Positions 2,104 to 27,419 of a DNA stretch of 58,069 bases are shown here, piece after piece. Position 1 is the stretch's first letter. Every line of letters starts with the position of its first letter. Source of the DNA: Prevotella sp. (GTDB lineage: Bacteria; Bacteroidota; Bacteroidia; Bacteroidales; Bacteroidaceae); the NCBI GenBank assembly GCA_017618275.1, contig JAFZUS010000075.1:1-58069 (forward strand). The letters are read 5' to 3'. The translations under genes and the position numbers were made by a program. The notes beneath the pieces were generated by a model that was not told the origin of the DNA, searched no databases, and worked only from the letters and a program-made list of their open reading frames with translations.

Positions 2104-2135
2104 TTTGTGTATTTGAAAAATAATATGTAAATTTG
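2104..2135 (+). promoter_or_regulatory. Promoter of the 18.5-kb surface operon
   Basis: TTTG at 2104-2107 and TAAATTTG at 2128-2135 are exactly 20 bases apart, a near-perfect Bacteroidetes housekeeping promoter. Transcription should start near 2142, giving a leader of about 170 nt before the first ATG at 2312. Confidence 0.85.
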
Positions 2136-2193
2136 CGGCGATTCATGGAGTTTTGCGATTATCGTTCATGGAAGAATGGTTACACGCTCTGAG

Positions 2194-2292
2194 GGTTACG
2201 ACACTCAAAAAAGGTTTTATAGTCCCCAAATCTTTTGATGTCGTTTAGAACCAATAATTAATAAGGGCTGCATCTAGGGGACAAGAAAGCCC
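2194..2292 (+). ncRNA. Candidate structured leader RNA with kissing loops
   Basis: Hairpin 1 pairs 2194-2197 with 2249-2252, 2198-2203 with 2239-2244, and 2205-2210 with 2233-2238 (16 bp in all, one bulged C and one four-base bulge). Its 22-nt loop carries GTCCCC (2222-2227). Hairpin 2 pairs GGGCT (2265-2269) with AGCCC (2288-2292). Its loop carries GGGGAC (2277-2282), the exact complement of the first loop sequence. The two loops could therefore form a 6-bp GC-rich kissing interaction. The element lies in the leader of the surface operon, 20 bases before the first start codon. It matches no riboswitch class I can name. It could be a riboswitch, a protein-binding leader or an RNA-stability element. 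Confidence 0.55.
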
Positions 2293-2311
2293 ATAGAAAT
2301 AGTACTATAAT

Positions 2312-3346
2312 ATGATGGCTAATCAACACAAGTATTCAAGTATTCTTATCATTGCCTTGCTCTTCTTTGCTGGCGGCCATTCTGATGCTGCCTCGTGGCG
2401 TATCAACAACAACGCCAACCGCCATGCCCACTTTACTGACATCAATGCGGCGATGAATAGCAGCGAGGTGCAGGATGGTGACACGCTCTATCTGGATCCG
2501 GGGTGTCTGCTTACCAGTACGCAGAACATTACCAAACGTGTGACTATCATAGGGACGGGGTATTTTCTTGGTGCCAATACTCATCAAGAGGCCTCCGTCA
2601 GCGGAAGTGTATACCTGAAGGCTGCCAGCACAAAAGTGGAAGGTCTGAAGATGACTGGCAAAGTATATATGTCAGCCAACAATGTGACCGTGGAAAGATG
2701 TTATCTTGGAGGAGTCGGCTACAGCGGAACTGCTCAGTATGCCACCATTCGCCAATGCTATGTTCCCAATGGTCAGATAGGTGGCAAGGGTAATACAGAT
2801 ACTGCAACAGCAAATTGGACAATTGAGAACTGCATCATCATTCGTACAGATGGTTACGATCCTATTATCAATCTTTATTGCCCCACTATCCGTAACAATT
2901 ATGTGCGACCTAACTACTCCAGTGCTTCTGCAGCAGTGGCACACGTTTCTGGAGCTACTATTATCAATAATATCTTCATTAATACGAGATTCATTGGCAA
3001 TGCAGAACTTTATGATGCGTCTGATTGTATTGTTAAGAATAATATTTTCCATGTAGCTTCGTATAAAACTACCTATCCGGGCAACGTAATAATAGATACG
3101 AACACAGAGTCAGCCGTGTTCGCCCTTACAGGAACCAACGAACAGCGTTATACTTTGAAAGAAGATAGTCCTGCGAAGGGAGCTGCCACCGACGGTGGCG
3201 ATTGTGGGCCTTACGGAGGAATTTATCCATACGTGCTTTCAGGCTACCCCTTGGGCATGCCCCGTTTCGACAGTAGCAACGTCGGCACCCGCGCCGTTGA
3301 CGGTCAAGTGCGCGTCTCGCAGCAAGTGACCATCCAGGGCCAATAA
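2312..3346 (+). CDS. Secreted beta-helix-like protein, copy 1
   Basis: The 344-residue protein has an N-terminal signal peptide (hydrophobic core ILIIALLFFAGG, about residues 11-22, cleavage near SDAA). The body is a series of short strands with turns such as NNVTVERCYL, ATIRQCYV, WTIENCIII, PTIRNNYV and TIINNIFI at about 20-30 residue spacing. That is the pattern of a right-handed parallel beta-helix (pectate-lyase-like fold), but no polysaccharide-lyase catalytic residues are evident. The C-terminus shows no T9SS sorting domain. It is the first gene of the surface operon and is followed 30 bases later by a clear paralogue (shared WRINNNA, FTDINAAM, DTLYxDPGC, TIIGxGY). Likely a surface or periplasmic structural or glycan-binding protein; substrate unknown. 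Confidence 0.7.
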   Translation: MMANQHKYSSILIIALLFFAGGHSDAASWRINNNANRHAHFTDINAAMNSSEVQDGDTLYLDPGCLLTSTQNITKRVTIIGTGYFLGANTHQEASVSGSVYLKAASTKVEGLKMTGKVYMSANNVTVERCYLGGVGYSGTAQYATIRQCYVPNGQIGGKGNTDTATANWTIENCIIIRTDGYDPIINLYCPTIRNNYVRPNYSSASAAVAHVSGATIINNIFINTRFIGNAELYDASDCIVKNNIFHVASYKTTYPGNVIIDTNTESAVFALTGTNEQRYTLKEDSPAKGAATDGGDCGPYGGIYPYVLSGYPLGMPRFDSSNVGTRAVDGQVRVSQQVTIQGQ

Positions 3347-3376
3347 TTACAAATAACAAAATAGAAAACCATCAAA

Positions 3377-4426
3377 ATGCTTACGACAATGAAAACCAAG
3401 AAGACAAACATTCGTATGATATTAGCAGTGGCTCTTCTCGCCCTGACCGCCACCACCGTCCAGGCCCGTTCCTGGCGTATTAATAACAATGCTAAGCAGA
3501 AACCAGACTTTACTGACATCAATGCTGCCATGAGTAGCGAGGATGTTGTGGCGGGTGATACGCTATATATGGATCCGGGCTGTAACCTGATTGCAGCACA
3601 GAATGTCACAAAGCAGGTCACCATCATCGGCTGCGGTTACGAGGGCAACGGCGTGCCATACGGTCAGACGGTCATCTCCGGACGCCTTAACATCAAAGCC
3701 GCCGATACCAAAGTAATAGGTGTTGTGACTACGGAGATTGTCTATATTATGGCCAACAATGTCACTCTGGAGCGTTGCCGTACCTATTGCATCAGAACTA
3801 GTGGTGACAATTGTAAAAATGCAGTCATCCGGCAATGCTATTGCAACTATTCAAGTGGAGCCCCCGTCATTGAAGGAGCTGGTAAAGAAAATACCAAGTC
3901 GGCTTTCTGGACGATTGAAAACAGCATTATCTTGGCTAATGGATCATATGATGCCCAGTGTGTATCTAATCTTTATAACGCTACGATACGTAACAATCTA
4001 CTCATAGATTACTATAATAACTATAATGGCTATACATTTTGTAATATTGGCAAAAGTCTAATCCAGAACAACATCATCATCCACACGACAAATGCCTCGC
4101 GTGCGCTCAACAACGTTGACACCGACCAGTTGAGCAACAATGTCATATCAAGCAACACGCGTGCCGAATACAACCACAGTAATGTGCTGACCACGGATTC
4201 CGTCTATACCGGTAATGTTCAGAGTTATGTGCTAACCGAAGACAGCCCTGCCAAGAATTATGGAGCTGACGGTACTGACTGTGGCATCTTCGGCGGTCTC
4301 TATCCTTACGTGAAGGGTGGTCTGCCATACGGCCATCCCTACTATACCCGCTATAACATCAGTTCACGAGCCGACGAGAACGGCAAGGTAAAGGTTTCAC
4401 TCAACATCAAGATGCAAGATGAATAG
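3377..4426 (+). CDS. Secreted beta-helix-like protein, copy 2
   Basis: The 349-residue paralogue of the preceding gene shares the SWRINNNA, DFTDINAAMSS, DTLYMDPGC and TKQVTIIGCGY segments and the same strand-turn rhythm (NNVTLERCR, AVIRQCY, WTIENSIIL, ATIRNNLL, SLIQNNIII). The signal peptide lies at about residues 13-31 (core MILAVALLALTATTVQA). The start used gives MLTTMKTKKT; an internal Met at residue 5 is equally possible. The 3' end overlaps the next gene by 8 bases, so the two are probably translationally coupled. The clear divergence between copies shows the duplication is old. No catalytic motif is visible. Confidence 0.7.
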   Translation: MLTTMKTKKTNIRMILAVALLALTATTVQARSWRINNNAKQKPDFTDINAAMSSEDVVAGDTLYMDPGCNLIAAQNVTKQVTIIGCGYEGNGVPYGQTVISGRLNIKAADTKVIGVVTTEIVYIMANNVTLERCRTYCIRTSGDNCKNAVIRQCYCNYSSGAPVIEGAGKENTKSAFWTIENSIILANGSYDAQCVSNLYNATIRNNLLIDYYNNYNGYTFCNIGKSLIQNNIIIHTTNASRALNNVDTDQLSNNVISSNTRAEYNHSNVLTTDSVYTGNVQSYVLTEDSPAKNYGADGTDCGIFGGLYPYVKGGLPYGHPYYTRYNISSRADENGKVKVSLNIKMQDE

Positions 4427-7400
4427 TCAGCACATCCATCAACAGGCGTTGGCGCTAGGATGGATGCGGTTGATAGTTTTCTTGTTTATCATTTCTCATT
4501 TGTCATTTAGTGCCAGCGCACAGGCGCAACTGGAGTACTGGTTTGACCAGGATCCCGGCCTGGGACGTGCCACCGTTGCGCAGGGAGCAGTTGCCGATGC
4601 CGAAGGCAACGTGACCTTCGAGGCACCTACGGCCGGTCTGGCCGTGGGCAGTCATTTGATGGGTGTCCGCTCTATTAATACCAACGACAAAGGTACGTAC
4701 TACGGCCCGACGCTCCTGCATACTGTCCTCGTACCCCATGAACAGAGCGAGGCCAGTGTCAGTTGCATAGAGTATTACTGGGACAACGACCCCGGACGAG
4801 GGAAAGCCTGTATTGTAAATGTCTCACCGGGCGACGAGGTTAACCTTGACGACCTAAAAATCCCCACCGACGGACTGGCACCAGGCATCCATCTTCTTGG
4901 ACTGCGTGCATTCGGCAATTGCGGCTGGGGTCCTACCATGCTGCAAGAGGTGCGAATACCCGTCAATAAGGCTGGTGTCAACATTACGCTCTTGGAATAT
5001 TTCTGGGGCGACGACCCTGGCTATGGTCTGGGTATTCCCATCGCTTTCACTCCTGACAAGGAGGTGAATCTCACCGATTTAGAGATTAGTTCCGACGGCT
5101 TGAACGGTGGCATATACCAACTGGGATTGCGTGTCTTTGGCAACGACGGCTGGGGGCCCACCCTCATTCAGGAGGTGCAGGTACCTACTGACAAGGCCAA
5201 CATCTTAGTAAAGTTAGTGGAATATTTCTGGGATAATGACCCAGGCTACTCGAAGGGCATCCCTATTGCTTTCGCTGCCAATAGGGAAGTCTCTATAGAG
5301 AATCTTGAACTGCCTACCGACGGACTTGATGCCGGAACTCATGTCTTGGGTATCCGTGCATACGGCAATGTGGGCTGGACACCTACAGTAAGTAGTGAAA
5401 TCTACATTGCTCCTGATCCTGCTAAACTTATCGTCAGCCAGGCTGAATATTTCTGGGACAACGACCCGGGTTACGGTCAGGGTACGCCTATCAGCATCAC
5501 GGAGGGTCAGAGCATCAGCGTAGAGTCCTTGGGCATACCCACCGACAACCTCACACCGGGCGACCACCAGTTGTTTGTGCGCTATCGTGGCCCGCAGGGC
5601 TGGAGTCCCACGCTGTGCAGCGACGTACGCGTCTTGGGCGAAACTCCTACCATCTCTGCTGCCGAATATTTCTGGAACGATGATCCTGGTTACGGTCAGG
5701 GTATACCACTCAATATAGAGCCGGGTCAGATGGTAACCATCAACGATGTGGGTATACCCTCGTTCGACGTTCATGGCGATGCCACGTTGTTCATCCGCTA
5801 TCGTGGTACTACGGGTTGGAGTCCCACGGTGGCCTACGTTATCATGGTCGATGCTGAGGGACACTATACGTTGAACGCAGCAGCGGAGACATCTATGGAA
5901 AACCGCAACTACCAGAGCTTCACCGATGCTCTTGATGACTTCGCTGACCGTGGCGTTGGTAACGACATCACGTTGGAGGTGACGACTACTAATAACGATT
6001 ATGCCCTTGACGCTACTACCGACGAGCGGATTGCACAGTTGACCACTATCACTGCGCAGATAAAGAAAGACAACACTACCCGCCACCAAAAGGCTATTGG
6101 CTTCACCGCCAATGAGGGTAGCGGAAACACCGTCACGGTGACCACTACCGCTGAGGGATTGCCCGCTGTCGTAGCCTTCTTTGCCCAGACGTCGTGGCAG
6201 AACGTCAGTCTGACCATCAATGGCACGGTCTACGATTTCACCCCAGCCAGTCAGCGCATGGATGAGACTTGTTCGGACAACGAGACAGCACCTGTGGCCC
6301 TGTCGGCTATCAGCAGCGCTGTCAGAACTACGTGGACGGCACAGCCACATGAAGGTACGATGCTCAGTGGTTTTGTTGCTGAAGGCACTGGTGACCTGAC
6401 GGCCATGACCATCGTCAACAGCGGCACGAAGACTGACTCGCTGGCCTATCAGGTGACGCTTGCAGACACTGAGGGGAACGAACTCTGCACCTATCTCTAT
6501 TATATATATGTTCACCCGCGCGTAGGTAACCAGACCTTTAGCAGCCTCCTGCCGAAGGATGACAGCAGCCTCGACCCCGGTGAGGTGACGCTTCGGTGGA
6601 ACGCCATCGGTGGTGTTGAGGGTGGCTACCGTGTGGACATTACAGAGACCGATAACGCCGAAGAACCGTCAGCGTCCAATAACTCGTACACGACGACGGA
6701 AACTAGCCTGAAGTTGACAGTAAAGAGCGGCTACACTTACATATGGACAGTGACGGCCATGGGAAGTTGTGACGAGTTAACCAGCACACCGCAGACCTAC
6801 AAGGGACGACTGTTGCCCGACTTCGTGGTTGAGGATATTACGCTGTCCGAAGGTGCAGAAGCCGGCAATACCATTACTATAAAGGCCATCGTCAAGAACC
6901 AAGGCGAGGGTGATGCCATCGAAGGCTCATGGATAGACCGTCTCTACTATATCATAGACAGTGAGGACTTCGCAAAGGCTGTACAGGCTGCCGAGGCCAC
7001 ACACGATGGTAATCTGGCTGTAGGCGATAGTTACGAAGTAATCTTCACAATGAAGGTACCATATCTGGAAAGTGGAAACCTGCGTGTGTTCGTTGAGACA
7101 GATGTTACGTCGGCGGTCATGGAGACCAACGACAACAATAACCGCACGCTCTCCACAGCCTCCGCCACACTCCAGCCCTTCTACATGAATGCTGCCGACC
7201 TCGCCGTCCTGCGACAACTGTACAGCGACTTCGACGGCAGCAACTGGAACGGTACACGATGGAACACCGCCTCGGAGTTGATTACCGAAAATAACTGGAG
7301 TGGCGTCACCTTCAATACCGAAGGTCGTGTTACCGCCATCAACCTGAAAGGGCGTGGACTGAAGGGAACGCTTTCTGCAGCAACGACCCTCTATCTGCCT

Positions 7401-8603
7401 GCCCTCACATCACTGAATCTGAGCCACAATGCCCTGACGGGTGATGTGACACCGTTTGTGACAACAGAAGGCTTGACATCGCTCGATGTGTCATACAATC
7501 AGATTAGCGATGTCTCTGCACCATTGCCTTCTACAATCAGTTCGCTGAACATAAGCAACCAGGTTCTCACCGATGTCACAGATTTTGATTTGGCTACGAT
7601 GATAGACGATACGTTCCTGGATCAGTTACCTACGATAGTTCGCTATGACCATAAGAGCCAGAACTACATGACTGATGTCAAACTCAGATGTGTGACCGCT
7701 AATGGTAATTTCGTGCTGAACCGCTCTAATGGCGAGACAACTGTTTCACCTGTTTCTTCTTCCTTGGTCTACAAAGGAATGACAGGCGACATGTTGAGCG
7801 TGTCTTCGGAAAGCGGTCTCGCCTCTGGCACAACGTTCCGAATGACATTCACGTTCCCGCAAGGTGATGCCACCTTTAATGGTGTGACAGACATTCTTGA
7901 CCTTCAGGCCACTATCAACTATATGTTCTTCAAGTGGAACGGACGCTTGTTCAACTATGCTGCCGTTAACTTGTATCCAGACGAAAGCATCAATATTCAG
8001 GATGCTATTCGACTGATTGATGTTCTCATCAACGAGCCATGGTACGATAAACCTGAAATCGTTCTTCATGCTCCGCTCAAGTCCAGACAAACAAAAGTTC
8101 CGGCACGGTTGTTTGTGGATGGTAATCTGTTGAAACTTTCAACGACGAAACCAGTAGCCGCATTGGATATTGTGTTGTCAGATTGTGATGTCATCTCTGA
8201 TTTATCGGAGATCACATCAGCAGGTCTGACTTATAACACGAGGCAGACCGAGACGTCTCACCGTCTCATTGCATATTCATTCAACGGCGGGACGTTGCCT
8301 GTCGGCGAGACAACACTCTGCCGTCTGGAGGGAGACACCCCATGCATTCTGAGAGCCAAACTGTCCGATGTTGATGCCAACGAGGTTATTGTGGATTTCA
8401 GTCATAGCACCACTGGCGTATCGGATAGTTCAGCACCAATCTCCTTCAAACTATATTCCATTGCAGGTATCCTATTGAAAGACGGTACTACGTCGGACTT
8501 GAGATCCACTCTCAACAGTCTTCCCATTGGCACCTATATTCTAAGACTGTCATACGGGAATGGCAAGGTGACACAATCCAAAATACGTATTGAATCCAGA
8601 TAA
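4419..8603 (+). CDS. 1394-residue T9SS-exported repeat/LRR/dockerin protein
   Basis: The signal peptide is at about 15-36 (core LIVFLFIISHLSFSASA). Six repeats of about 75 residues follow, each opening with EYxWDxDPGxG (near residues 38, 116, 192, 266, 341 and 415) and closing with a WGPT/WSPT turn. Residues 480-690 are an unassigned region, 695-780 look fibronectin-like, and about 800-915 is a CARDB-like beta-sandwich. A short leucine-rich segment (LTSLNLSHNALTG) lies around 1000-1050, and a degenerate dockerin-like pair of helices around 1148-1210. A further cohesin-like sandwich is possible. The last 70 residues (LYSIAGILL to KIRIESR) form a type A T9SS sorting domain. This predicts export across the outer membrane and surface anchoring. 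Dockerin loops are weak and may not bind calcium. Confidence 0.8.
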   Translation: MNSQHIHQQALALGWMRLIVFLFIISHLSFSASAQAQLEYWFDQDPGLGRATVAQGAVADAEGNVTFEAPTAGLAVGSHLMGVRSINTNDKGTYYGPTLLHTVLVPHEQSEASVSCIEYYWDNDPGRGKACIVNVSPGDEVNLDDLKIPTDGLAPGIHLLGLRAFGNCGWGPTMLQEVRIPVNKAGVNITLLEYFWGDDPGYGLGIPIAFTPDKEVNLTDLEISSDGLNGGIYQLGLRVFGNDGWGPTLIQEVQVPTDKANILVKLVEYFWDNDPGYSKGIPIAFAANREVSIENLELPTDGLDAGTHVLGIRAYGNVGWTPTVSSEIYIAPDPAKLIVSQAEYFWDNDPGYGQGTPISITEGQSISVESLGIPTDNLTPGDHQLFVRYRGPQGWSPTLCSDVRVLGETPTISAAEYFWNDDPGYGQGIPLNIEPGQMVTINDVGIPSFDVHGDATLFIRYRGTTGWSPTVAYVIMVDAEGHYTLNAAAETSMENRNYQSFTDALDDFADRGVGNDITLEVTTTNNDYALDATTDERIAQLTTITAQIKKDNTTRHQKAIGFTANEGSGNTVTVTTTAEGLPAVVAFFAQTSWQNVSLTINGTVYDFTPASQRMDETCSDNETAPVALSAISSAVRTTWTAQPHEGTMLSGFVAEGTGDLTAMTIVNSGTKTDSLAYQVTLADTEGNELCTYLYYIYVHPRVGNQTFSSLLPKDDSSLDPGEVTLRWNAIGGVEGGYRVDITETDNAEEPSASNNSYTTTETSLKLTVKSGYTYIWTVTAMGSCDELTSTPQTYKGRLLPDFVVEDITLSEGAEAGNTITIKAIVKNQGEGDAIEGSWIDRLYYIIDSEDFAKAVQAAEATHDGNLAVGDSYEVIFTMKVPYLESGNLRVFVETDVTSAVMETNDNNNRTLSTASATLQPFYMNAADLAVLRQLYSDFDGSNWNGTRWNTASELITENNWSGVTFNTEGRVTAINLKGRGLKGTLSAATTLYLPALTSLNLSHNALTGDVTPFVTTEGLTSLDVSYNQISDVSAPLPSTISSLNISNQVLTDVTDFDLATMIDDTFLDQLPTIVRYDHKSQNYMTDVKLRCVTANGNFVLNRSNGETTVSPVSSSLVYKGMTGDMLSVSSESGLASGTTFRMTFTFPQGDATFNGVTDILDLQATINYMFFKWNGRLFNYAAVNLYPDESINIQDAIRLIDVLINEPWYDKPEIVLHAPLKSRQTKVPARLFVDGNLLKLSTTKPVAALDIVLSDCDVISDLSEITSAGLTYNTRQTETSHRLIAYSFNGGTLPVGETTLCRLEGDTPCILRAKLSDVDANEVIVDFSHSTTGVSDSSAPISFKLYSIAGILLKDGTTSDLRSTLNSLPIGTYILRLSYGNGKVTQSKIRIESR

Positions 8604-8606
8604 GTC

Positions 8607-11600
8607 ATGATAAAAAGAAAGTATATATATCTTCTACTTATTCTGCTTCTGCCAATGGCGCTACACACAGCGACAGCGCAGACGAACCGCCTCTATATGA
8701 GCGATGTCCAGCTTGAGGCAGGGAGTACAAGTACGCTTGATGTCTACATGGAGAACACGACGGATGTGGTAGGTTTCCAGTTCACGCTGACAGTCCCCGA
8801 AGGCATAACGCTGCTGCCTCAAAACGTGAAGTCCTCAGAACGTTTGGCAAAGCATGAGTTAGTGGCTCAATCCATAGGTGCAAACCAATATATGTTTGCA
8901 GCCTACTCCGCCAATAACGAAGCCATCAGCGCTATTCAGGGCGTGTTGTTCACAATCCCTGTGCAGGTGGCATCTGACATAGAGGACAACGTAAGATATG
9001 AGCTGAGCATGACACAGGCCGTCATGGGTAACAAGAATGGCAACAATGTTCTGGCATCGGCTTCTGGAAGTAAAATATTCGTTGCCGGCCTTCCAAACCT
9101 GCATGTCACCTCAGTGGATTGCTCTGAAGCTGTTGCCGGCCGGAAGATGACTGTCACATGGCGTGTGCGTAACGACGGGGCTGGTCCGACGGGCGATATC
9201 GGCTGGAAGGACTATGTGTGGCTGACACCCGACATTCAGGGTGGCATGAATATGACTGGCCTCAAACTCTTACAGACAATAGACAACGTGACTGCACTAC
9301 AGCCCGGTGAATGGTATGACAACAGCATTGAGGTAGAGTTGGAAGAGCGTAAGTATGGCAAATACCATATTGTCGTTACCTCTGACATGTATGGCTTTGA
9401 CAAGATGGAATTGTCACCTGCTGGCAATGCGCTTCCCGAAGTCTATCAACCTGAAACGGAAGACTATGGCTATCTCTTCGCTACTGGCACTGCAAGTTAT
9501 GACCAGTTGGTGGAATCAGGTGAAAGCAAGGGGCGTAGCGACAACTTCTTCTATAAACGCATCAACATCGCTGTGCCACCACTTCCCAACCTGAGGGTGA
9601 GCCAAGTGGTTGCCGTAGTCGACAACGGTCTGCCCGACGGCTGGTCTGGAGGATTTATCATATCAGATTCTGGATTAGCCAGTTCCTCACTGTTTTATTC
9701 TATTAAGAAAATCAAGGTGACTGCTCGCATAACGAATACGGGTGAGGCTCCTGTCAGCAATGCAGTGGTTAGGGATGCCCTCTATATGTCCCATAGCGAG
9801 GATATGACCGGTGATGTTTATAAGATGGCAGTGAAAAACGACACGCTGAACATACAACCTGGCGGAGAACAACTCATCACATTCTCCACACAGTTGCCCT
9901 ATGTCTGGAGCGGAGACACTTGGTTCCATGTACATGTGGACACCAAAGATGCGGTTTATGAGGGTGCTGCCACTACCGACAATCTCGGCACGAGCGGTAA
10001 GATTGAATGTTTGCAGGCACCCACGCCCGATTTCAAGGTTACCAGCGTCAGCGTTCCCAAGCAGGTGACACTCGGCATTCCATTCGACGTGACATACAAA
10101 GTAAAGAACGTCGGTCCCGGCAAGCCCTACTCTACGGGCTGGACGGACCGTATATATGTATCAAACAGTAACTCAACTGCTGGAGCTTCCCGCGTAGAAT
10201 CACATCGGCAAACGGGCGGTTTTGTAATGGATGAAAAAGGCAACGTCCAATATAATGGTGACAACTATACGGCAACACGTAGTGTGAAGCTAAACAATTT
10301 GACTGCCGGTACCTATTATATATATGTTAAGACGGACACTGAAGATGACGTGTATGAGTATGACGGTGAAGGCAATAACTGGTCAGAACCAGTGGCTACG
10401 CTGGTCGTTGCTGCCGACCTGACTGCAGAGTTGCTATCGGTCTCTCCCGACACGTTGTACAACAACTCACAAACCACCATCAGGTGGAAGGTGAAGAACA
10501 TTGGAAATGGAACCCTTCAGAACATAGCCCTGACAGATGCTTTCTATGCCACTCCAGTCAACGGTAATACTTCACATTATTTAGGACGGTCTACAAACAC
10601 CGTATCGATAGCCCCTGGTAGCGAGAAAGTATTGATGGCCAATATCACCCTGCCTAACAACAGTCAGCTCAATGGCAATATGTCGGTATTCGTCAAAACG
10701 AATACTAATGGTGTGGTGGAGTCAACGACAGGTAACAACATCTCGGCAGGTATCGTCAAGCCCTTCAAGTATGAGGAAGAAGCAGTCAACAATCCTCATC
10801 CACCCATTACCATTGGAAGTCGCCCCAATTTGGTGGTAGCCAATGTGACGGTTTCTGCAACCATCACGTCTGGACAAGAGGCAGACATCAGTTACCAGTT
10901 GAAGAACATCGGAGCAGGTGCAACAGGAGTACAAGTCAAGCAGGAAGTGTACCTGTCGCAGAGCGCCTCCTTCAACAGTCAGTCGGCAATAGCATGTGAG
11001 ATCGTCAGCGAGCAACTGTCTTCGATGTCTGATATTCTACTGAAATATAATGGCTCGTTGAACACCTCCATGCGCATCAAGGTACCAGGGAACATCCGTG
11101 GCGGCAAGTATTATCTGCATGTCATCGTCAATAGCGACGGCATGATTGAGGAGACAAAATATACCGACAATTCAGCCTCCGCATATTGTCAAGTCAATGG
11201 CAGTTTGCCCGACTTGGAACTGAGCGGTCTCACGGTACCAACAGCAGTGAAGACATCCGTACCTTTCGATGTGAAATGGACTATGGCTAATGTGGGTACA
11301 TGGGATGCTGTTCAGACAGTCTGTGATGTCTGGCTGACGGCAAGCGAAAAGCCTGTGAAGCTTTTGAAGACAGTGGAGGTAGAGGCTTTAGCCACTCATA
11401 AGAGTTCCAATAAGTCTGTTACCATTCAATTGGAAGATGATATCGTTGGAAGCTATGGCATCATGGTAGTAGCCGATTCTGCACATCGGCAGAACGAGCT
11501 GTCACGAAGCAACAACCGGCTCACGTCACCTATTACTGTAACCCAGTCGCCACTGCCCAATCTGCATCTCATGAACCTCGACGTTGATGGTCATCTGCAT

Positions 11601-13298: not shown

Positions 13299-13315
13299 TT
13301 TATCTCATTTGCATT

Positions 13316-16300
13316 ATGAAAAGAATAATCCATACGATATTTTGTCTTCTACTATTTGCCCATACCAATGCCCAGAACATCATACACCCGAAGATAGCTG
13401 GACCAAATGATCTGTGGGTAAACAGCTACAATGGTGTATTGTTCTTTGGTCGGACTGACATGGAGACACAGAATTCAGCCATGCCTATGCAGCTGCGCTT
13501 CTACTATAATAGTTCTGCAACTGATATGGATTACGGTTATGGGCTGGGCTTCTCGTTAGGATTTGAGATGAGCTGTACTGTGGATGAGGATGGAAACGTC
13601 ATGATTACCCAGGGTGATGGTCGTACAGACACCTATATGCGCTATGGCGAGGACTACCAATCGCCTCCAGGAGTGTTCAGCCAGCTGACACATCCTAATT
13701 CCCTTAAATACGTGCTTACGACAAAGGAGGGAGAGAAATATGAGTTTACCACGGAACTGAAGATAAAACTGATGGTTGTGCGTCCTGTATTGGCTTTTGC
13801 AGACGGAGACAGAAGCGGTGGTGGCAATATCGTTAAAAAGCCTGCTAACCGCTATATCAAGCTGACAGCGATGGAAGACCGACACGGCAACCGTACGGAG
13901 TTGAAATACAACAACAATGATTATCTGGTGGAAATCAAGGATGCTGTCGGCCACACCATCAATATGACGTATGAGGGCGGACAACTAATCCGAGCCACTT
14001 CTTCTTTCTATGATGGTAGCTACACCTACAACTATGATTCCAAGAATAGATTGGTAAAGCTTACCGACGGCATGGGCTATACGACGCTCTATGGCTACGA
14101 CAAGCAGAATCACATCAACGAGATTACCGATGCCAATGGTCATAAGACGCTGATCTCCTATAACGGTGTGGGCATGGTGAGTCGTCTAAAGACTGATGTA
14201 AGTGACAAGAGCATTCGCTACGATGGTGACAAGACCGTATTCATCGACTATACCCAACCCAAGAATCTTTATTCCTACTATCGATGGGATGACTTTGGAC
14301 GTGTCATCGAGAAGGTGGGACTGTGCTGCGGTATCCAACAGAAAATGGAGTACGACGAGGACGATAACGTTATCAAACGGACGGATGCCAACGGACACAG
14401 CACCACCTATACGTACGATGACCGGGGCAACATGCTCTCCATGACCGATGCGAAAGGTAATACCGAGCGGTACACCTACGATGACGTGTTCAATAATGTG
14501 ACATCCTTCCAGGACCGTAACGGTAATACTTATCGGTTGGACTATAATAACAAGGGTGATCTGATCTCGCTCACCGGGCCGGAGGAACTGTCTTTCTCTT
14601 TTACCTATAACAATCGTGGATGGGCTGTGACAGCCACTGATGCACTGAATAATGTGACAACAACCAGCTACAATGACGACGGTACGACGGCAGAGGTGAT
14701 GGATGCTGCAGGCAACATTACGACTTACAGTTATGACAGCTATGGACTGTTAAAGAATGTCACTGACCCTGAACAGTTTTCTACGTCGCTCTTCTACGAA
14801 AAGAACGGCTGGCTGAGAGCTGTCATTGACCATATCGGGCATACCACATCTGTGAGTCGTGACAAGGTGGGACAGGTGGTGCGCTTGACCAATGCCAAGA
14901 ACCAGATTACGGCCTATACCTACGACCCCTTAGGACGCATCCTTACGCGTACTGATGCCATGAAGGGGGTGACGCGTATGGAGTATGACGGGCGGGGTAA
15001 TATCATCAGTGTCACTGACCCACTGGGTCGCAAACAGACCCAAACCTATGATGAACGTAACAAGCTACACTCACAGACCAACGCTGCCGGTGAGACCACG
15101 ACATATGACTACGATGCCAAAGGAAACCTGATTGCCATTTTCATGCCTAATGGCAATGTGCAGACTATCGACTACGATGAGAACGACCTCCCGGTGCTGG
15201 TCAGTGATAACATGGGTGTCATTGCCCAATATACCTACGATGCGAATGGCAATGTCCTGACAGTGACCGATGGTGAAGGACGCATCATCACTTATACTTA
15301 TGATGGGCTGAATCGTATGACGAGTCAGACTTTGCCGTCAGGCAGCACGACGAGTTATGCCTACGACGGCAATTCGAATCTGGTGTCAGTGACTGATGCC
15401 AATGGCTCAGTGACAAGCTATACCTATAGTTCGCTCAACCAGCAACTTTCCATAACCGATGTCCTAAATGCCAAAACACAGTTTGAGTACGATGCCAACG
15501 GAAATCTCAAGAAAGCTACTGATGCCAATGGCAACGCCACCACCTATACTTACGACGCATTGAACCACCTTACGGCTATCAGCTACGCCAACGGCCTTTC
15601 AGAGCAGTTTGTCTATGATGAGGTGGGCAGCATTGTGGAGGAATCCGACCGTGCCGGACGCAAAACCAAGATGAATTATGATGCTTTAGGACGTTTACTC
15701 ACACAAACATACGCTGATAACACAAGCGACCGCTATACATACGATGTTGCCGGACAGCTGTTGTCGGCTATCAATAACAATGCAACGGTGAAGTTCACTT
15801 ACGATAGTGCCGGGCGTCTGCTTTCCGAGACTTTAGGAGGAAAAACCACAAGCTATAGTTACGACGTTGCAGCAGGAAAGCGCATCCTGACCTACCCCAG
15901 TGGCATGAAGGTGACAGAGTTGCTGAACGCTCGGGGACAGATAGCATCCCTGTTACAAAACGGCAGTGAGGTGGTGACGATGACCTATAACACGGTAGGT
16001 CAAAAGATCCGGCAGACCTATGCCAACGGCATCACTACTGACTATGCCTATAACGAGAACGGTTGGCTGTCGCAAATTAATGCCAGCAAGGACGTGATGA
16101 AACTTAGTATGGCCTACGATGTATTAGGCAATATGACGTCGCGCACTGACCAACTTAACGGAGAACGGTCGGAAAGTTATGGCTATGACCTGATATCGCA
16201 GTTGACAAGTTTCAAACGTGGAACCAGTGTTGACCACAACTACCAATATGACCTGTTGGGGAATCGCGTTCAGACATTAGAGAACGGTGTTCAGACCACG

Positions 16301-17416
16301 TATAGGGCCAATAACGTGAATGCCTACACCTCTGTCAGCGGACGACTGAACATGACGCCGCAGTATGATGATAATGGCAACCTGACGCGTGAGACCAGCC
16401 ACAAATACGCATACGATTGCAACAACCGCCTCATCGCTCTGGACGATATCACGGCCCGTTACAGCTATGACGCACTGGGACGTCGTATCAGCAAGACGCT
16501 TGCTGGCGTTACCACCAACTTTTTTTACGCTGGCGACCAGATGGTAGAGGAATACAACGGCAACACACTCGCAGCCTCCTATTTATATGGCAACGACATC
16601 GATGAGGTTTTGCAGATAAAACGGGGCAACAATACGTATTATTATCACGCGAACCATCTCGGCTCCACGATGGCACTCACGGACAATGAGGGGAATATCG
16701 CCGAGCGCATCGACTATGATGCATTCGGCATGCCCACCTTCTATGATGCCTCTGGTAATACTCTCGCTGCTTCTGCCATTGGCAATAACATTCTCTTCTC
16801 TGGTCGTGAATACGATGCAGAGTCCCAAACTTACTATTTTCGCGCCCGTACCCAGCACCCCGCCCTCGGACGATTCCTCCAGAAGGATCCATTGAGATAT
16901 GTGGATGGAATGAATGATTATGCGTATGTGGGAAATAATAGTTTGATGATGTATGATAATAGCGGTAATCGTAAAATTAGAATTTCCAAAAGAATAAGAA
17001 TTTCTAAAGGTAAGGCAAAAAAAATAAGAAAATCCATAAGGAAAGGTAATGGCTCTGATTTTATTCCTATTAAAGATGATGTTTATGCTACCTATGATTG
17101 GGAGAATGATATGATTGGAGCGGATGAACTAAGCCAAAAATATGCAGATAGGGCTATGCAGGCACGAAGTGAAAACGAAATCAAGGCATTATATGTAGGA
17201 TATTTTGGAGAATCCTTAATTTATATACCAAGATCATTAATAAAAACACCTTTTCTGGATGAAGCGTTATCACCAATATTGGATCCAATTCAAGAATGGT
17301 TGGGAGATAAGTTTAAGGAACTTGCAGAGGACTATTTAAATAGTAAAGATAAGCCTAAATCGGATACGAAGCATGACTGTAGTACTCCATACAAGAGTGG
17401 TAGTAGAACGCAATAA
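13316..17416 (+). CDS. Secreted RHS/YD-repeat protein with variable tip
   Basis: The 1366-residue protein has a Sec signal peptide (core IIHTIFCLLLFAHTNAQ) and an RHS N-terminal plug-like region (GVLFFGRTD, YGLGFSLGFEM). Several dozen YD repeats (GNxxxxTDxxGxxTxYTYD) at about residues 215-1080 should form the hollow RHS shell. The RHS core (YYHANHLGSTMALTD, DYDAFG, GREYD, YYFRARTQHPALGRFLQKDPL, NDYAYVGNN) lies at 1105-1215. The final 150 residues form a distinct tip: a Lys/Arg-rich stretch, then an acidic helical part. DNA there is AT-rich. No PAAR, VgrG or T9SS sorting domain is present. The tip could be a toxin or a species-specific module, but no immunity-like gene follows. The gaps to its neighbours are 17 and 7 bases. 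Confidence 0.88.
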   Translation: MKRIIHTIFCLLLFAHTNAQNIIHPKIAGPNDLWVNSYNGVLFFGRTDMETQNSAMPMQLRFYYNSSATDMDYGYGLGFSLGFEMSCTVDEDGNVMITQGDGRTDTYMRYGEDYQSPPGVFSQLTHPNSLKYVLTTKEGEKYEFTTELKIKLMVVRPVLAFADGDRSGGGNIVKKPANRYIKLTAMEDRHGNRTELKYNNNDYLVEIKDAVGHTINMTYEGGQLIRATSSFYDGSYTYNYDSKNRLVKLTDGMGYTTLYGYDKQNHINEITDANGHKTLISYNGVGMVSRLKTDVSDKSIRYDGDKTVFIDYTQPKNLYSYYRWDDFGRVIEKVGLCCGIQQKMEYDEDDNVIKRTDANGHSTTYTYDDRGNMLSMTDAKGNTERYTYDDVFNNVTSFQDRNGNTYRLDYNNKGDLISLTGPEELSFSFTYNNRGWAVTATDALNNVTTTSYNDDGTTAEVMDAAGNITTYSYDSYGLLKNVTDPEQFSTSLFYEKNGWLRAVIDHIGHTTSVSRDKVGQVVRLTNAKNQITAYTYDPLGRILTRTDAMKGVTRMEYDGRGNIISVTDPLGRKQTQTYDERNKLHSQTNAAGETTTYDYDAKGNLIAIFMPNGNVQTIDYDENDLPVLVSDNMGVIAQYTYDANGNVLTVTDGEGRIITYTYDGLNRMTSQTLPSGSTTSYAYDGNSNLVSVTDANGSVTSYTYSSLNQQLSITDVLNAKTQFEYDANGNLKKATDANGNATTYTYDALNHLTAISYANGLSEQFVYDEVGSIVEESDRAGRKTKMNYDALGRLLTQTYADNTSDRYTYDVAGQLLSAINNNATVKFTYDSAGRLLSETLGGKTTSYSYDVAAGKRILTYPSGMKVTELLNARGQIASLLQNGSEVVTMTYNTVGQKIRQTYANGITTDYAYNENGWLSQINASKDVMKLSMAYDVLGNMTSRTDQLNGERSESYGYDLISQLTSFKRGTSVDHNYQYDLLGNRVQTLENGVQTTYRANNVNAYTSVSGRLNMTPQYDDNGNLTRETSHKYAYDCNNRLIALDDITARYSYDALGRRISKTLAGVTTNFFYAGDQMVEEYNGNTLAASYLYGNDIDEVLQIKRGNNTYYYHANHLGSTMALTDNEGNIAERIDYDAFGMPTFYDASGNTLAASAIGNNILFSGREYDAESQTYYFRARTQHPALGRFLQKDPLRYVDGMNDYAYVGNNSLMMYDNSGNRKIRISKRIRISKGKAKKIRKSIRKGNGSDFIPIKDDVYATYDWENDMIGADELSQKYADRAMQARSENEIKALYVGYFGESLIYIPRSLIKTPFLDEALSPILDPIQEWLGDKFKELAEDYLNSKDKPKSDTKHDCSTPYKSGSRTQ

Positions 17417-17423
17417 ATTGTAG

Positions 17424-20261
17424 ATGTATATGATAAAGTCATATTATATAACGGCAATCTTATTGGTCTGTGTGTTATCTACAACAAATGCACAGGTCAG
17501 TTGTAATCAAGGTGACCAAAATTCTCCTGGACAAAAAACTCCTGGAGTATGTCCTATCGGAGATCTCACTCCTGTCGAAGAAAAATCATACGACCCTAAC
17601 GAGCTGATTGGTCCGGAGGGTTATGATTCCGTACGTTGGGTGAGCATCAACGATGTTCTGCGCTATACCATCATGTTTGAGAACGACCCGGAATTTGCAA
17701 CGGCGGCAGCGCAGGTGGTAGATGTCAGGTTCAACTTCCCGAATAAGAACATGATGCGAGGCTTTGGTATCAGCGACTATAGTTTCTCCAATCAAGCGTT
17801 CACAGTGCCGACACCCTCTAACGCCTACCAGACACGCATTGACCTGCGTGATTCCTTGGGTTTCTTCGTTGACTTGATAGGTGGCCTCGATCAGACGCGG
17901 CAACAAGGGTTCTGGAAGTTCATGACCATCGACCCGATGACGGGCTATGCTCCCACGGAGGTATACAAGGGCCTACTGCCCGTGAACGACTCCACCCATG
18001 TGGGTGAGGGCTATGTGACATTCCAGATGACTCCTACCGAGGACATGCAGACAGGCGATACCATCAGTTTTGCAGCCAACATCGTGTTCGACACGAACGA
18101 TACCATTCCTACCAACCGCTGGAGGGTGACCGTCGATGCAGGAGCGCCTCAAAGCAAGGTACAAGGAACCCCCATCTTATCCCCTCAAGGGGGGACGACC
18201 CCAACCAGTTATCAGTTGACGTTTACGGCAAATGACGACGAAGGGGGCTCGGGCGTAAAGCATGTGCTGCTCTATCTGGCCAATAATATGGGCATCTACG
18301 AGGAGACAGACACCGTGGCGGTTGACTCCGTGTTGCTGTTCCCCGTAGAGCAAGGCAAGCAATACAAGTTGTACTCTATTGCCGTTGACAACGTCGGCAA
18401 CCGCGAACCTGCGAAGATGGAGCCGGATGTCATTCTGAATTTCAACCTTGCGCCTACCGACATCGTTCTTAGTGACACCACTTTTCAGGACGATATCGCT
18501 ACAGGTGGCTTCATTGCTGAACTCACCTCGGAAGATGTTGAGCAGGATGGTTCCTTCACGTATGCCCTCGCCGAAGGCGACGGTGCCATCCATAACGACC
18601 TGTTTCAGGTTTCTGGGACACAGTTACAGGCTAAGCAGCCATTCAAATGCGCTGGTGATACCTGTTATCAAATCCGTCTGAGTACGACTGACGAAGGAGG
18701 TCTAAGTTTTAGTAAGGCCTTTAATCTGGACTTGAAGAAGGTATTGGTAAGGCCGAAGGTAGATACGCTGAACGTGACACTCTGTGATGGTGAAACCTGT
18801 CTCTTCAAAGGTATGGAATACACCGAGACAGGACAGTATAAATCGTCGAAGGAGAACGAATACATGTGCGACAGCCTGTTTGTGCTGAACCTGACGATAC
18901 TGCCCAAGCAGGAAATACCGCTGGTCAGCGTTGAAGGAACGCATACGCTTGTATCATCAGCAGCCAAGGGTAACCAGTGGTTCCGTGAAGACGGTACGCC
19001 CATCGCTGAAGCCACAGACCAGAAGTTTACACCGGAGGAGGATGGCATCTACTATGTTGCTGTTTCGAACGGAGTCTGCTATTCTGAACCTTCACAACTT
19101 TATCAGGTGCGACTGTCTGACTATATCGACTTGCGGATGGATCTGAAAACGGGTTGGAACTGGGTGTCATCGAGCCTTTCCGAACCTGCCAATCAAGATG
19201 CCAAGCAGTTCCTTCAGCCCATCGCCGACATCACCGAGCGTTTTGTGGGTCAGCAGGACGAACTCATTAACGACCCAGTCTATGGTCTTACCGGCGGTTT
19301 GACCACCATTGCCCCTACAGAGAGTTATAAGTTGCAAGTGTCGGAAAATAACAGCAATGTCTGGAGCGGTAATGGCAGTAACCCCGAGACTACTACTTTT
19401 AATCTGCGCAAGGGCTGGAACTGGATAGGTTATGTACCCATTAGAGCCAATACGCTCAGTGCCGCGTTGACAGGCATTACCCCTTCGGAGAACGATATTA
19501 TAAAATGTATAGATGAATTTGCAACCTTCACTGGCGGTAATTGGGTTGGTACGCTCACACAACTGAAACCCGGTGAAGGCTACCTGTACTACTCTGGCAA
19601 AAACACTACGTTCAAGTATCCTGCCATGCGGGCGTTCCCTGTGGAATCAGACCAAACGCCAATGGCTGCAAGGTCATATGGTAGTCCTTGGCATTATGAT
19701 GCCCACGGTGCACCTGACAATACGACCCTGATAGGGCAGTTGTATGCTGATGGTTCGCTGACATTGGAAGGCACCTATACCGTTGGCGCATTCTGTGGCA
19801 ATGAGTGCCGAGGTGTGGGTAAATATGTAGACAACAAGTTGTTTATGACCATTCATGGCACCGTTGACAAAAGTGAGACGATCAATTTCAAGGCATACGA
19901 GAATGCGACAGGACAGGAATACAACATCAGTGAGAGCATAGCATTCAACGGTCAGCAAGAGGGAAACTTTATCTCACCAATTGCTTTGCACATCAGCGGG
20001 GCAACGGGAATCAGTGAAATCTCTGATAAATTCACAATCTACCCGCGTCCATTGCACAGCCGGTTATATGTAAACGGTGAAACGACAAACATCAAGAGCA
20101 TTCTTGTGTTGTCGACCGACGGATCCGTAAATATATCTCAGATGGGCTACTATGAAGACGGTATTGATGTGAGCATTCTGTTGCCTGGTGTCTATGTGGT
20201 TGCTATCACATTGGATAACGGAAAGGTATATTATGAAAAAGTAATTAAAGCACAGAACTGA
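17424..20261 (+). CDS. 945-residue modular surface protein with T9SS sorting domain
   Basis: The signal peptide ends near TTNAQ (residue 24). Next comes a DPNELIGPEGYDSVRWV / LRYTIMFENDP module (about 50-235), which I know from large CARDB/RHS proteins. A cadherin-like repeat follows (about 340-440), then a module with a CDSLFVLNLTI ending, an Ig-like stretch, and paired WNWVSSSL/WNWIGYV segments. A YTVGAFCGNECRGVGKY module (about 775-850) comes next, and the last 75 residues are a type A sorting domain (FTIYPRPLHSRLYVNG to YYEKVIKAQN). The protein is predicted to be exported by T9SS. Its GAFCGNECRGVGK module matches the protein encoded immediately downstream. A GC-rich palindromic insert lies at 18169-18204. 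The stop codon overlaps the next start by one base. Confidence 0.8.
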   Translation: MYMIKSYYITAILLVCVLSTTNAQVSCNQGDQNSPGQKTPGVCPIGDLTPVEEKSYDPNELIGPEGYDSVRWVSINDVLRYTIMFENDPEFATAAAQVVDVRFNFPNKNMMRGFGISDYSFSNQAFTVPTPSNAYQTRIDLRDSLGFFVDLIGGLDQTRQQGFWKFMTIDPMTGYAPTEVYKGLLPVNDSTHVGEGYVTFQMTPTEDMQTGDTISFAANIVFDTNDTIPTNRWRVTVDAGAPQSKVQGTPILSPQGGTTPTSYQLTFTANDDEGGSGVKHVLLYLANNMGIYEETDTVAVDSVLLFPVEQGKQYKLYSIAVDNVGNREPAKMEPDVILNFNLAPTDIVLSDTTFQDDIATGGFIAELTSEDVEQDGSFTYALAEGDGAIHNDLFQVSGTQLQAKQPFKCAGDTCYQIRLSTTDEGGLSFSKAFNLDLKKVLVRPKVDTLNVTLCDGETCLFKGMEYTETGQYKSSKENEYMCDSLFVLNLTILPKQEIPLVSVEGTHTLVSSAAKGNQWFREDGTPIAEATDQKFTPEEDGIYYVAVSNGVCYSEPSQLYQVRLSDYIDLRMDLKTGWNWVSSSLSEPANQDAKQFLQPIADITERFVGQQDELINDPVYGLTGGLTTIAPTESYKLQVSENNSNVWSGNGSNPETTTFNLRKGWNWIGYVPIRANTLSAALTGITPSENDIIKCIDEFATFTGGNWVGTLTQLKPGEGYLYYSGKNTTFKYPAMRAFPVESDQTPMAARSYGSPWHYDAHGAPDNTTLIGQLYADGSLTLEGTYTVGAFCGNECRGVGKYVDNKLFMTIHGTVDKSETINFKAYENATGQEYNISESIAFNGQQEGNFISPIALHISGATGISEISDKFTIYPRPLHSRLYVNGETTNIKSILVLSTDGSVNISQMGYYEDGIDVSILLPGVYVVAITLDNGKVYYEKVIKAQN
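18169..18204. repeat. GC-rich palindromic insert in the 945-residue protein
   Basis: CCCC-TCAA-GGGG (18181-18192) inside a C- and G-rich stretch; encodes the out-of-place linker TPILSPQGGTTPT. Similar in style to the inserts in gltX and waaA. Confidence 0.5.
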
Positions 20262-20860
20262 TGAATAGGACAAGATACAAATCTCTGGCACTGATCCTGC
20301 TATGTTTTTTCATGACAGGAATATTACAGGCGCAAGAACAGCATTGGCAGTATAACCCGTATGCATTCGAATATGATATGACGGCATATGTTACACTGAA
20401 GGTGAACAACGCAATAGTCAGTAACCCAGAAAATTATGAAATTGCAGCGTTTTGTGGTACGACTTGCCGTGGTGTCGCTAAACTGATGACGGCAGATGAT
20501 GGGGCAAAATATTATTACTTGCGCATACGCAGCAAAAAGGCTAGTGGTGAGAAAATTAAGTTCTGTGTCTATAATTGTGCTAATGACGCGGAAATCTGGG
20601 CAGAAAAAACTGTCAAATTCGTTTCGCAGTCAGCAGTTGGATATCCAAGTAATCCATTTGTACTTCAAATCGTGGAATATAAGAATGGCGACGCTAACGG
20701 CGATGGCGAGGTTAATATTTCCGATGTGGTGGAAATTGTGAACTATATTCTAGGAAATCCTTCAGAAAACCTCAATGAAATGGCTGCAGATGTAAATGGC
20801 GACGGCAATATCACCACCGCCGATGCCGTGGGTGTGGTGAACATCATTATGAATGAATAA
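20261..20860 (+). CDS. Small secreted dockerin protein
   Basis: The 199-residue protein has a signal peptide (core SLALILLCFFMTGILQA) and an ENYEIAAFCGTTCRGVAKLM-containing module (residues 25-135) shared with the preceding protein. It ends in a classic type I dockerin pair, DANGDGEVNISD and DVNGDGNITTAD (about 145-199), each a calcium-binding loop followed by a helix. It begins at TGATG, overlapping the upstream stop. It has no sorting domain. The dockerin suggests docking onto a cohesin-like partner; the cohesin-like N-terminal domain of the 1563-residue operon protein is a candidate. Last gene of the operon; I see no strong terminator before the convergent HU gene. Confidence 0.82.
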   Translation: MNRTRYKSLALILLCFFMTGILQAQEQHWQYNPYAFEYDMTAYVTLKVNNAIVSNPENYEIAAFCGTTCRGVAKLMTADDGAKYYYLRIRSKKASGEKIKFCVYNCANDAEIWAEKTVKFVSQSAVGYPSNPFVLQIVEYKNGDANGDGEVNISDVVEIVNYILGNPSENLNEMAADVNGDGNITTADAVGVVNIIMNE

Positions 20861-26450: not shown

Positions 26451-26486
26451 TGCAATAAAACGGGGTTGTGTTACGTTATATGTCAA

Positions 26487-27419
26487 GTGAGACGTTTCTT
26501 AATAGTCACGGTAGTACTGCTGGCGACTCTGACGGTTCAGGCGCAGCAGGATGTGTCCTTCGGCCATTACTGGGCGATGGAACCGTCTTTTAACCCCGCT
26601 TCTGCCGGTAAGGAAGAAAAACTGAATGTTGTTGTGGCCTATGCGATGCAGTTGGCCGGTTTTGAGCATAATCCGAAGACGATGTATGCTGCTGCCGATA
26701 TGCCGTTCTATGCGATGAATAGTTATCACGGCGTTGGTGTGCAGATTATCAATGATGACATCGGTCTGTTTTCCCACAAGCGTCTTGGCTTGCAATATGC
26801 CTATAAGAAAACGTTGTTTGGAGGTACGCTGAGTGGCGGCGTGCAGGTTTCGATACTGAGCGAGGGCTTTACCGGTTCGAAGTTGGAAGTCATTGATGAC
26901 GGCGATGAGGCACTGCCCAAATCGGATGTTACCGGAACGGGTTTTGACCTGGGTGCGGGCCTGTATTACACCCACCGTAACTGGTATGTGGGCATCTCTG
27001 CCCTCCACTTCAATTCTCCGACAGTTGAACTGGGTGAAACCAATGAATACAATATCTCTTCATCATATTATTTGACGGGCGGATACAATATTCGGCTCAG
27101 AAATCCGTTCTTAACAATACACACCTCTGCTTTGGGGCGTACTGACGGTGTGGACTGGCGGGCCGATATCACGGGTCGTCTGGTATACACACATGAGAAG
27201 AAGATGATGTATGCAGGCGTGTCGTATAGTCCGATGAAATCAGTGACAGCAATGATTGGCGGTAACTTTCACGGCATTCATCTGGGATACAGTTACGAGG
27301 TTTATACGACAGCCATCAGCATTGGCAACGGAAGCCACGAACTGTTTGTAGGATATCAGACAGAACTGAATCTCTTCAAGAAAGGTCGGAACCTTCATAA
27401 GAGTGTGAGAATTCTATAA
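26487..27419 (+). CDS. porP: PorP/SprF family T9SS outer-membrane protein
   Basis: The start is set at a GTG (26487) giving MRRFLIVTVVLLATLTVQA, a clean signal peptide ending before QQDVSFGHYW. A TTG at 26466 is a longer alternative. The mature protein of about 290 residues is a beta-barrel of the PorP/SprF family. It has FNPASAGKEEKLNV near the start (typical 'NPA.aG' motif), YYTHRNWYVGISALH in the middle and alternating aromatic strands to the end. PorP is a T9SS component linked to the PorK/PorN ring and to surface adhesin delivery. The following gene is gldK, as in the classical porPKLMN order. The 3' end overlaps the upstream arm of a repeat pair (27417-27449). Confidence 0.9.
   Translation: MRRFLIVTVVLLATLTVQAQQDVSFGHYWAMEPSFNPASAGKEEKLNVVVAYAMQLAGFEHNPKTMYAAADMPFYAMNSYHGVGVQIINDDIGLFSHKRLGLQYAYKKTLFGGTLSGGVQVSILSEGFTGSKLEVIDDGDEALPKSDVTGTGFDLGAGLYYTHRNWYVGISALHFNSPTVELGETNEYNISSSYYLTGGYNIRLRNPFLTIHTSALGRTDGVDWRADITGRLVYTHEKKMMYAGVSYSPMKSVTAMIGGNFHGIHLGYSYEVYTTAISIGNGSHELFVGYQTELNLFKKGRNLHKSVRIL

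Follow-up and report, generated by a model that had tools for sequence, protein, structure and literature searches.

The stretch analysed here (the window) is 58,069 nt of Prevotella sp. DNA (contig JAFZUS010000075.1 of assembly GCA_017618275.1), and all coordinates refer to it. The genome it belongs to has 3.6 Mb in 213 contigs and is 92% complete. Seven open reading frames (ORFs) on the plus strand, a predicted operon, encode the proteins P0001 to P0007 (Table 1); three of these, the scaffold protein P0004, the RHS/YD shell P0005, and the DUF7619 protein P0006, are the main subject of this report. The gaps between successive genes are 30, -8, 3, 17, 7, and -1 bases, which bears out a first-pass annotation that had described seven co-directional genes with gaps of at most 30 bases, preceded by one promoter. 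The pattern TTTG-N20-TAAATTTG, which we take to be a Bacteroidetes-type promoter motif, occurs upstream of the first gene and has no plus strand match within 2300-20860, in agreement with that annotation; with spacers of 18-22 it has five matches in the window versus 0.72 expected. A scan for sigma-70 promoters gave scattered matches inside the cluster too (42 versus 30 expected, both strands).

Pfam recognizes eight CARDB stretches in P0004, and in P0005 Pfam and NCBIfam find 22 RHS-repeat stretches along with DUF6531 and the Rhs_assc_core (PF05593, 372 bits; TIGR03696, 65 bits). Signal peptides were judged by eye. P0003 has YWFDND-type repeats, also seen by eye, CARDB and LRR_4 (leucine-rich repeat) matches in Pfam, and the type A sorting domain of the type IX secretion system (T9SS) at 24.8 bits (TIGR04183, cut-off 23). 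P0007 matches Dockerin_1 with an E-value of 1.2e-12. The domain list proposed earlier stands in outline and is weak in two places: the dockerin of P0003 has an E-value of 0.22 in Pfam, and within the beta-helix pair P0001 alone matches Beta_helix, below the cut-off.

Table 1. Features of the gene cluster and its surroundings in window coordinates.
Feature	Position	Strand	Basis
Promoter match TTTG-N20-TAAATTTG	2104..2135	+	Pattern search
P0001, beta-helix-like secreted protein; accessory, outside the conserved core	2312..3346	+	Pfam, comparison
P0002, paralogue of P0001	3377..4426	+	43% identity
P0003, repeats, CARDB, leucine-rich repeats, weak dockerin, T9SS type A tail	4419..8603	+	Pfam/NCBIfam; L099 and L131 match its C-terminal part
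P0004, scaffold with signal peptide, cohesin, CARDB repeats, and linker domain; lacks a T9SS tail	8607..13298	+	Pfam, fold, NCBIfam
Cohesin domain of P0004	8676..9116	+	Pfam below cut-off; AlphaFold2 model; PDB fold matches
C-terminal linker domain of P0004 (P4_C), ending at the gene break	12249..13295	+	Comparison with fused relatives
P0005, RHS/YD shell; signal peptide present, T9SS tail absent	13316..17416	+	Pfam, NCBIfam
Hypervariable tip after the Rhs core of P0005	16970..17413	+	Identity drop in alignment; no Pfam match
P0006, DUF7619 protein with T9SS type A tail	17424..20261	+	Pfam, NCBIfam
Region of P0006 alignable to other DUF7619 proteins; position of isopeptide lysine is leucine	17586..18443	+	Alignment
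T9SS type A sorting domain of P0006	20037..20249	+	TIGR04183, 28.7 bits (cut-off 23)
P0007, dockerin protein; N-terminal domain common to P0006	20261..20860	+	Pfam, comparison
T9SS core genes porP-gldK-gldL-gldM-gldN	26466..32485	+	Same window

Fused and split counterparts in other genomes

We searched 395 genomes of the phylum with the last 336 residues of P0004 (P4_C); 16 matched, our own included, and 20 stretches were fetched. A P4_C profile matched 30 of 395 genomes of the class, again counting our own, and 20 of the 22 best new places were fetched. In family f18 of the same phylum, seven loci (L079+80, L081+82, and L083-L087) carry CARDB, P4_C, RHS, and DUF7619 within one frame and in the order of the window. 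Three further f18 loci have three of these modules in one frame: at L096 these are P4_C, RHS, and DUF7619, and the preceding frame encodes CARDB; at L098 P4_C, a weak match to RHS, and DUF7619 share a frame whose start is the contig end; and L088 has CARDB, P4_C, and RHS and is cut by the contig end. P0004 ends at the point where the fused f18 proteins continue towards their RHS part. A protein of Nostoc sp. HK-01 (BBD63171.1, 4202 aa) likewise contains CARDB, P4_C (1671-1913), RHS (2067-2753), and DUF7619 (3150-3430) in one chain; its P4_C was found by profile, and the match covers the second part of the domain.

Outside Prevotella, RHS-containing forms in three genes occur at L103, L104, and L111, and two-gene forms with RHS fused to DUF7619 at L107 and in Chitinophagaceae PMP191F (L091/L102). 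Loci L105, L106, L108-L110, L112, and L114 have a different payload and are split into two to four genes, and L113 and L115-L122 are one-gene forms without RHS. On plasmids, 28 records match P0006, and four were examined. WP_245126930.1 of Hymenobacter volaticus combines repeats matching the N-terminal part of P0003 with CARDB, P4_C, and DUF7619, and the Gloeothece and Terrarubrum plasmid proteins contain CARDB, P4_C, and DUF7619 without RHS. In 36 of 37 loci, P4_C and DUF7619 are encoded in this order on the same strand and enclose a slot; the exception, L093, has no P4_C match. The split point in the 17 split loci is the end of P4_C, and in the window all four parts, CARDB, P4_C, RHS, and DUF7619, follow each other in that order on one strand. 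The division of a giant architecture into subunits, which the first-pass annotation had offered as an inference, now has comparative evidence in the fused f18 and Nostoc counterparts and in this shared split site.

The content of the slot differs between loci. According to Pfam it is an M4 thermolysin at L110, L112, and L114 and an M23 peptidase at L105, L108, and L109; these peptidases stand in place of the RHS shell, after the CARDB scaffold gene and before DUF7619. L106 has a weak M12 match in a separate gene (E 0.0027, below the cut-off). The Nostoc protein (L136) has a von Willebrand type D (VWD) domain between its RHS core and DUF7619, and the Gloeothece and Terrarubrum slots contain carboxypeptidase-regulatory-like domains, the latter below the cut-off. 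Ten further slot stretches, including those of Nostoc, Gloeothece, and Terrarubrum, were scanned with Pfam; L113 gave one marginal hit and six gave none. Judged by domain content, P4_C and DUF7619 bound a fixed slot, of which RHS is one of several putative contents, because elsewhere the same position holds M4 or M23 peptidases or nothing recognized. DUF7619 itself is described in excerpts of PMC12617251 as an intramolecular isopeptide domain with a Lys-Asp-Asn triad. The lysine is present in one of 54 aligned rows (by eye), and P0006 reads DPNEL at this position; with the lysine missing in the other 53, the isopeptide-bond reading, including the idea of a split tag and catcher, was dropped.

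Within the genus, 200 genomes including our own (G000) were searched at E 0.001: 88 match P0006 and 62 match P0005, and among the matches listed those near full length for P0005 or P0006 come from G000 and G133 only. A profile of the P0004 C-terminus matched 8 of 398 genus genomes. Five matches are strong, those in G000 (the window), G133 (locus L101), G970 (L100), G1048 (L099), and G1113 (L131); the other three are partial, with E-values of about 1e-4. All five Prevotella loci encode the counterparts of P0004, P0005, and P0006 as separate adjacent genes. A P0003-like gene is found in three of them (window, L099, and L131), and in the same three a gene corresponds to P0007 over its N-terminal part or more. 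At L131 the P0003-like gene precedes the P0004 counterpart, and the P0006 counterpart is followed by a full P0007-like dockerin gene and then by a cohesin-like gene. At L099 the P0003-like gene ends in a match to the P0007 dockerin, and the long gene after the P0006 counterpart has only its N-terminal domain in common with P0007. L100 and L101 have a longer P0004 counterpart with a cohesin-like part. The beta-helix pair P0001/P0002 has no match in the other four Prevotella loci; the stretch available for L131 begins at a contig end. Comparison of gene order across Prevotella therefore does not sustain the earlier view of the seven genes as one conserved set. Since P0004, P0005, and P0006 are kept in five of five loci, P0003 and P0007 in three, and the beta-helix pair in none of the four others, we regard the first three as the conserved core, with P0003 and P0007 as frequent partners.

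A tree of P4_C and DUF7619 from 41 loci, 17 of them split and 24 fused at the end of P4_C, was rooted at the midpoint, which leaves the direction of change open. Split versus fused at the P4_C end requires one change on this tree, on a starred branch (98/96), and the split, widespread in Bacteroidia, for this reason looks old. Payload type requires four changes (L106 scored as a peptidase locus, L098 as an RHS locus), and the break between RHS and DUF7619 three changes among the RHS loci. Over 18 loci, the tree distances of RHS, P4_C, and DUF7619 correlate at 0.90, 0.92, and 0.96, and none of 2000 permutations reached values as high, which shows a history common to the three parts.

Sorting tails, RHS tip, and the proposed device

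The last 120 residues of the proteins from split-gene forms were searched against NCBIfam at E 0.01. None of the 25 C-termini of stand-alone scaffold (17) and RHS (8) proteins matched any NCBIfam family, and 14 of 15 C-termini of DUF7619 genes matched TIGR04183; our guess is that the one miss is L109, a locus with an early frame end. P0004 and P0005 follow this pattern in having no T9SS tail of their own. At L091 and L107 a single polypeptide comprises the RHS shell, DUF7619, and the sorting tail. The first-pass annotation had placed the RHS gene between partners with T9SS sorting domains, and the TIGR04183 matches of P0003 and P0006 confirm this; porP-gldKLMN are located in the same window. 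It had also called the whole a T9SS-exported assembly; of this, the tails of P0003 and P0006 stand, and for P0004 and P0005 export would have to proceed without a tail. The fixed gene order, the common split site, and the pattern of one tag per set together suggest that the core pieces travel out jointly with only P0006 tagged, that is, by export in trans. SprA is present in all five Prevotella genomes with the set, our own included.

The N-terminus of P0004 matches the Pfam cohesin model with E 7e-4 and 20.2 bits, below the cut-off of 24.1. An AlphaFold2 model of residues 24-170, computed from a four-row alignment, has a pLDDT of 91.2, and the 50 best of its 104 PDB matches (E 0.001) are cohesins or scaffoldin pieces with TM-scores of 0.65-0.83 over the query. 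A fold search with P4_C, for which the model is middling, returned generic Ig-like matches and was set aside. In the four Prevotella RHS proteins, mean pairwise identity per 100 columns falls from 0.44-0.75, as far as the core, to 0.04-0.13 beyond; variability of this kind fits either an effector or an antigenic adhesin.

We consider it reasonably likely that P0004, P0005, and P0006 are separately encoded pieces of one multi-subunit surface device, produced elsewhere as one giant chain, that is exported on the tail of P0006. This reading draws on gene order, homology to fused proteins, split sites, tail distribution, the cohesin fold, and tip variability, all of which are observed. P0004 would be a long beta-sandwich scaffold that starts with a cohesin; P0005 would form a hollow RHS shell that fills the payload slot from the last P0004 domain to DUF7619 and contains or presents a rapidly changing tip; and P0006 would provide the DUF7619 base with the sole T9SS tail among the three. 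All three are predicted to enter the periplasm by Sec and most likely bind each other there. The complex would then leave through the T9SS on the P0006 tail and stay attached to the cell surface, its shell flanked by scaffold and base. The probable partner of the P0004 cohesin is the P0007 dockerin; the weak dockerin of P0003, a protein with its own tail, may be another. The device may serve to deliver a variable effector or adhesin tip to other cells, or to present it to them. A broader proposal, that the T9SS exports preassembled devices on the tag of one subunit, with an untagged CARDB scaffold and payload docking at the sides of the slot and only the DUF7619 subunit being recognized, is tentative, and we give it less than even chances.

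T9SS cargo is described as carrying the sorting domain itself (for example in PMC8545088), and in the cryo-electron microscopy work on the F. johnsoniae translocon (PMC10994853) substrate C-terminal domains are bound in the SprA pore. Excerpts of the latter paper give no case of an untagged partner, those of PMC10202324 name no untagged T9SS cargo, and those of PMC3482391 have no occurrence of CARDB or PorSS.

Several points weigh against a jointly exported device. P0004 and P0005 lack the signal of known T9SS cargo and could stay in the periplasm. The fused f18 and cyanobacterial chains speak for assembly rather than for the T9SS export route. No P0007 match lies near L100 or L101. The partner of the P0004 cohesin is uncertain, because a genome-wide Pfam cohesin search (E 0.001) did not return P0004 and dockerins are common in the genome (37 matches); the one Pfam cohesin over the cut-off (C191) is located elsewhere. 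Pairing of the P0004 cohesin with a dockerin of the operon is plausible, not assured. The P4_C model is of moderate quality (pLDDT 73.6). The correlation of tree distances could in part reflect the history of the organisms. Finally, the RHS parts in the slot fail to group as one clade: L107 and f18 stand apart from the rest, with weak support, in the company of a long-branched non-slot RHS of our own genome (L003), so the slot may have acquired RHS on more than one occasion.

A compatible possibility is an antibacterial polymorphic toxin device, whose RHS tip is released to neighboring cells as in other Rhs or TANFOR proteins. The sharp loss of identity after the core would suit it, as would the peptidase payloads in the same slot and the TANFOR toxins with Sec signals that adjoin genes with T9SS tails (PMC7073777, in part). 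We see it as possible, with the chances somewhat against it. None of the eight tips scanned, out of 15, matches a Pfam family over the cut-off (Pfam was the only library used), and the region after the Nostoc shell is a VWD domain. No immunity-like ORF was seen by eye between the RHS and DUF7619 genes of six loci, the rest of the genome not being excluded, and in the window the gap between P0005 and P0006 is 7 bases; the lack of a neighboring immunity gene speaks against a standard antibacterial toxin. Two immunity candidates, a 124-aa ORF at L103 and the gap at L131, were set aside as short-unit repeats (L103:952-1326 and L131:12404-12734, by eye). Cys/His motifs in the RHS tips of L099 and L103, which have no Pfam match, resemble by eye those of papain-like toxin domains.

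The set could also be a structural adhesin or a cellulosome-like assembly for binding plant fiber, again compatible with the device proposed above. The RHS shell would then serve as a rigid building block, and the variation of its tip would be neutral or antigenic. Cohesin and dockerin are both present, CARDB, leucine-rich repeat, and beta-helix-like modules occur, and one relative comes from buffalo rumen. Pfam finds no catalytic carbohydrate domain in the operon, however, and the slot of relatives can hold peptidases; we rate this use as rather unlikely. It seems improbable, though the missing tails of P0004 and P0005 would fit, that the operon encodes independent surface and periplasmic proteins of which only the tailed P0003 and P0006 reach the surface, the RHS shell remaining periplasmic: the order is kept in 36 of the 37 loci, the parts are fused in one chain elsewhere, their tree distances match, and L091 and L107 have shell, DUF7619, and tail in a single polypeptide. 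RHS core proteins are often cargo of the type VI secretion system (T6SS), and TssD is present in G1113, which is among the five Prevotella genomes that carry the set, but P0005 has a Sec signal and no PAAR or VgrG domain, and Bacteroidetes TssD, the one T6SS family searched, was not found in the other four, our own 92% complete genome included, so that a T6SS-delivered Rhs effector can practically be dismissed.

Flanking features and RHS-free cassettes

P0001 and P0002 resemble proteins of RHS-free cassettes of the genus (L037, L040, L041, L042, and L044). In these, a beta-helix-like protein of ~350-400 aa is followed by one of 1100-1500 aa that matches DUF7619 and, by eye, has YWFDND-like motifs. 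The P0007 dockerin is matched at L037, L041, and L044, and at L040 in a separate gene; a small cohesin-like gene accompanies L041 (by match) and L040 (by eye). The beta-helix proteins of all five cassettes have a conserved C-terminal tail like 'SKTTADGKLSVDIEVKAAE', less clear in P0001 and P0002, which could be an assembly or sorting signal.

The porP-gldK-gldL-gldM-gldN genes lie ~5.6 kb downstream of the operon. Directly downstream of it, an inverted repeat at 21410-21516 has arms of type CCAAAACAACTTGTTTTG and weak matches to miRNA models. In an Rfam scan of 1500-21600 the sole matches were two to miRNA families, both below threshold and both at this repeat, so the leader is not accounted for by a known RNA family. 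A 912-aa protein at 52953-55691 has partial matches, far below cut-off, to the leucine-rich repeat adhesin HupY and to Gli349. PADLOC gave no match for any of the seven operon proteins, and in PHROGs the seven gave one, that of P0005 to a family of unknown function.

Comparison with known systems

Parts of PMC6425310 and PMC7073777 show that each of three elements is known by itself: YD shells that follow CARDB-like repeats, T9SS tails, and toxins whose genes are separate from that of their carrier. The payload slot, the split CARDB-RHS-DUF7619 form, and the one-tag pattern were not met in full-text literature searches, which left subscription papers and bioRxiv mostly outside. If the proposal is correct, T9SS cargo could be exported in trans, whereas described T9SS cargo carry their own sorting domain, and RHS shells would gain a delivery route that needs neither a T6SS nor one giant chain. 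With RHS, M4, or M23 in the slot, the device would be a surface weapon or adhesin with an exchangeable payload, long kept split across Bacteroidia. The slot also offers a handle for finding further effectors in uncultured Bacteroidota.

The operon is like cellulosome scaffoldin-dockerin systems in combining a cohesin fold with a dockerin. It differs from them in that one cohesin was seen, the scaffold consists of CARDB, and no dockerin-bearing carbohydrate enzyme is present in the operon. The single-chain proteins BBD63171.1 and those of f18 have the same modules in the same order, in one gene as opposed to three here.

Bacterial teneurin-like YD-shell proteins, as described in parts of PMC6425310, have beta-sandwich repeats including CARDB, a YD shell, an Rhs core, and a highly variable C-terminal domain. 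The cluster resembles them in the beta-sandwich/CARDB region before the shell, the Rhs core, and the variable tip. They are single chains in which TTR, FN-plug, and NHL propeller precede the shell, whereas here the shell is a protein of its own, and DUF7619 with its T9SS tail is encoded by the next gene. Pfam gave no TTR, NHL, or plug hit in P0004 or P0005, its content of an FN-plug model not having been checked.

The nearest printed idea of such export concerns the TANFOR toxins of Bacteroidetes, for which PMC7073777, in the part at hand, proposes T9SS export; like P0005 they have a Sec signal, variable C-termini, and neighboring genes with T9SS tails. A TANFOR domain was not among the NCBIfam and Pfam matches of P0005 (presence of the model in these libraries was not checked), and no immunity gene was seen at the tip. 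In further distinction from the TANFOR toxins as described there, the partners of P0005 correspond to segments of a single fused chain, and both the slot and the split site are defined.

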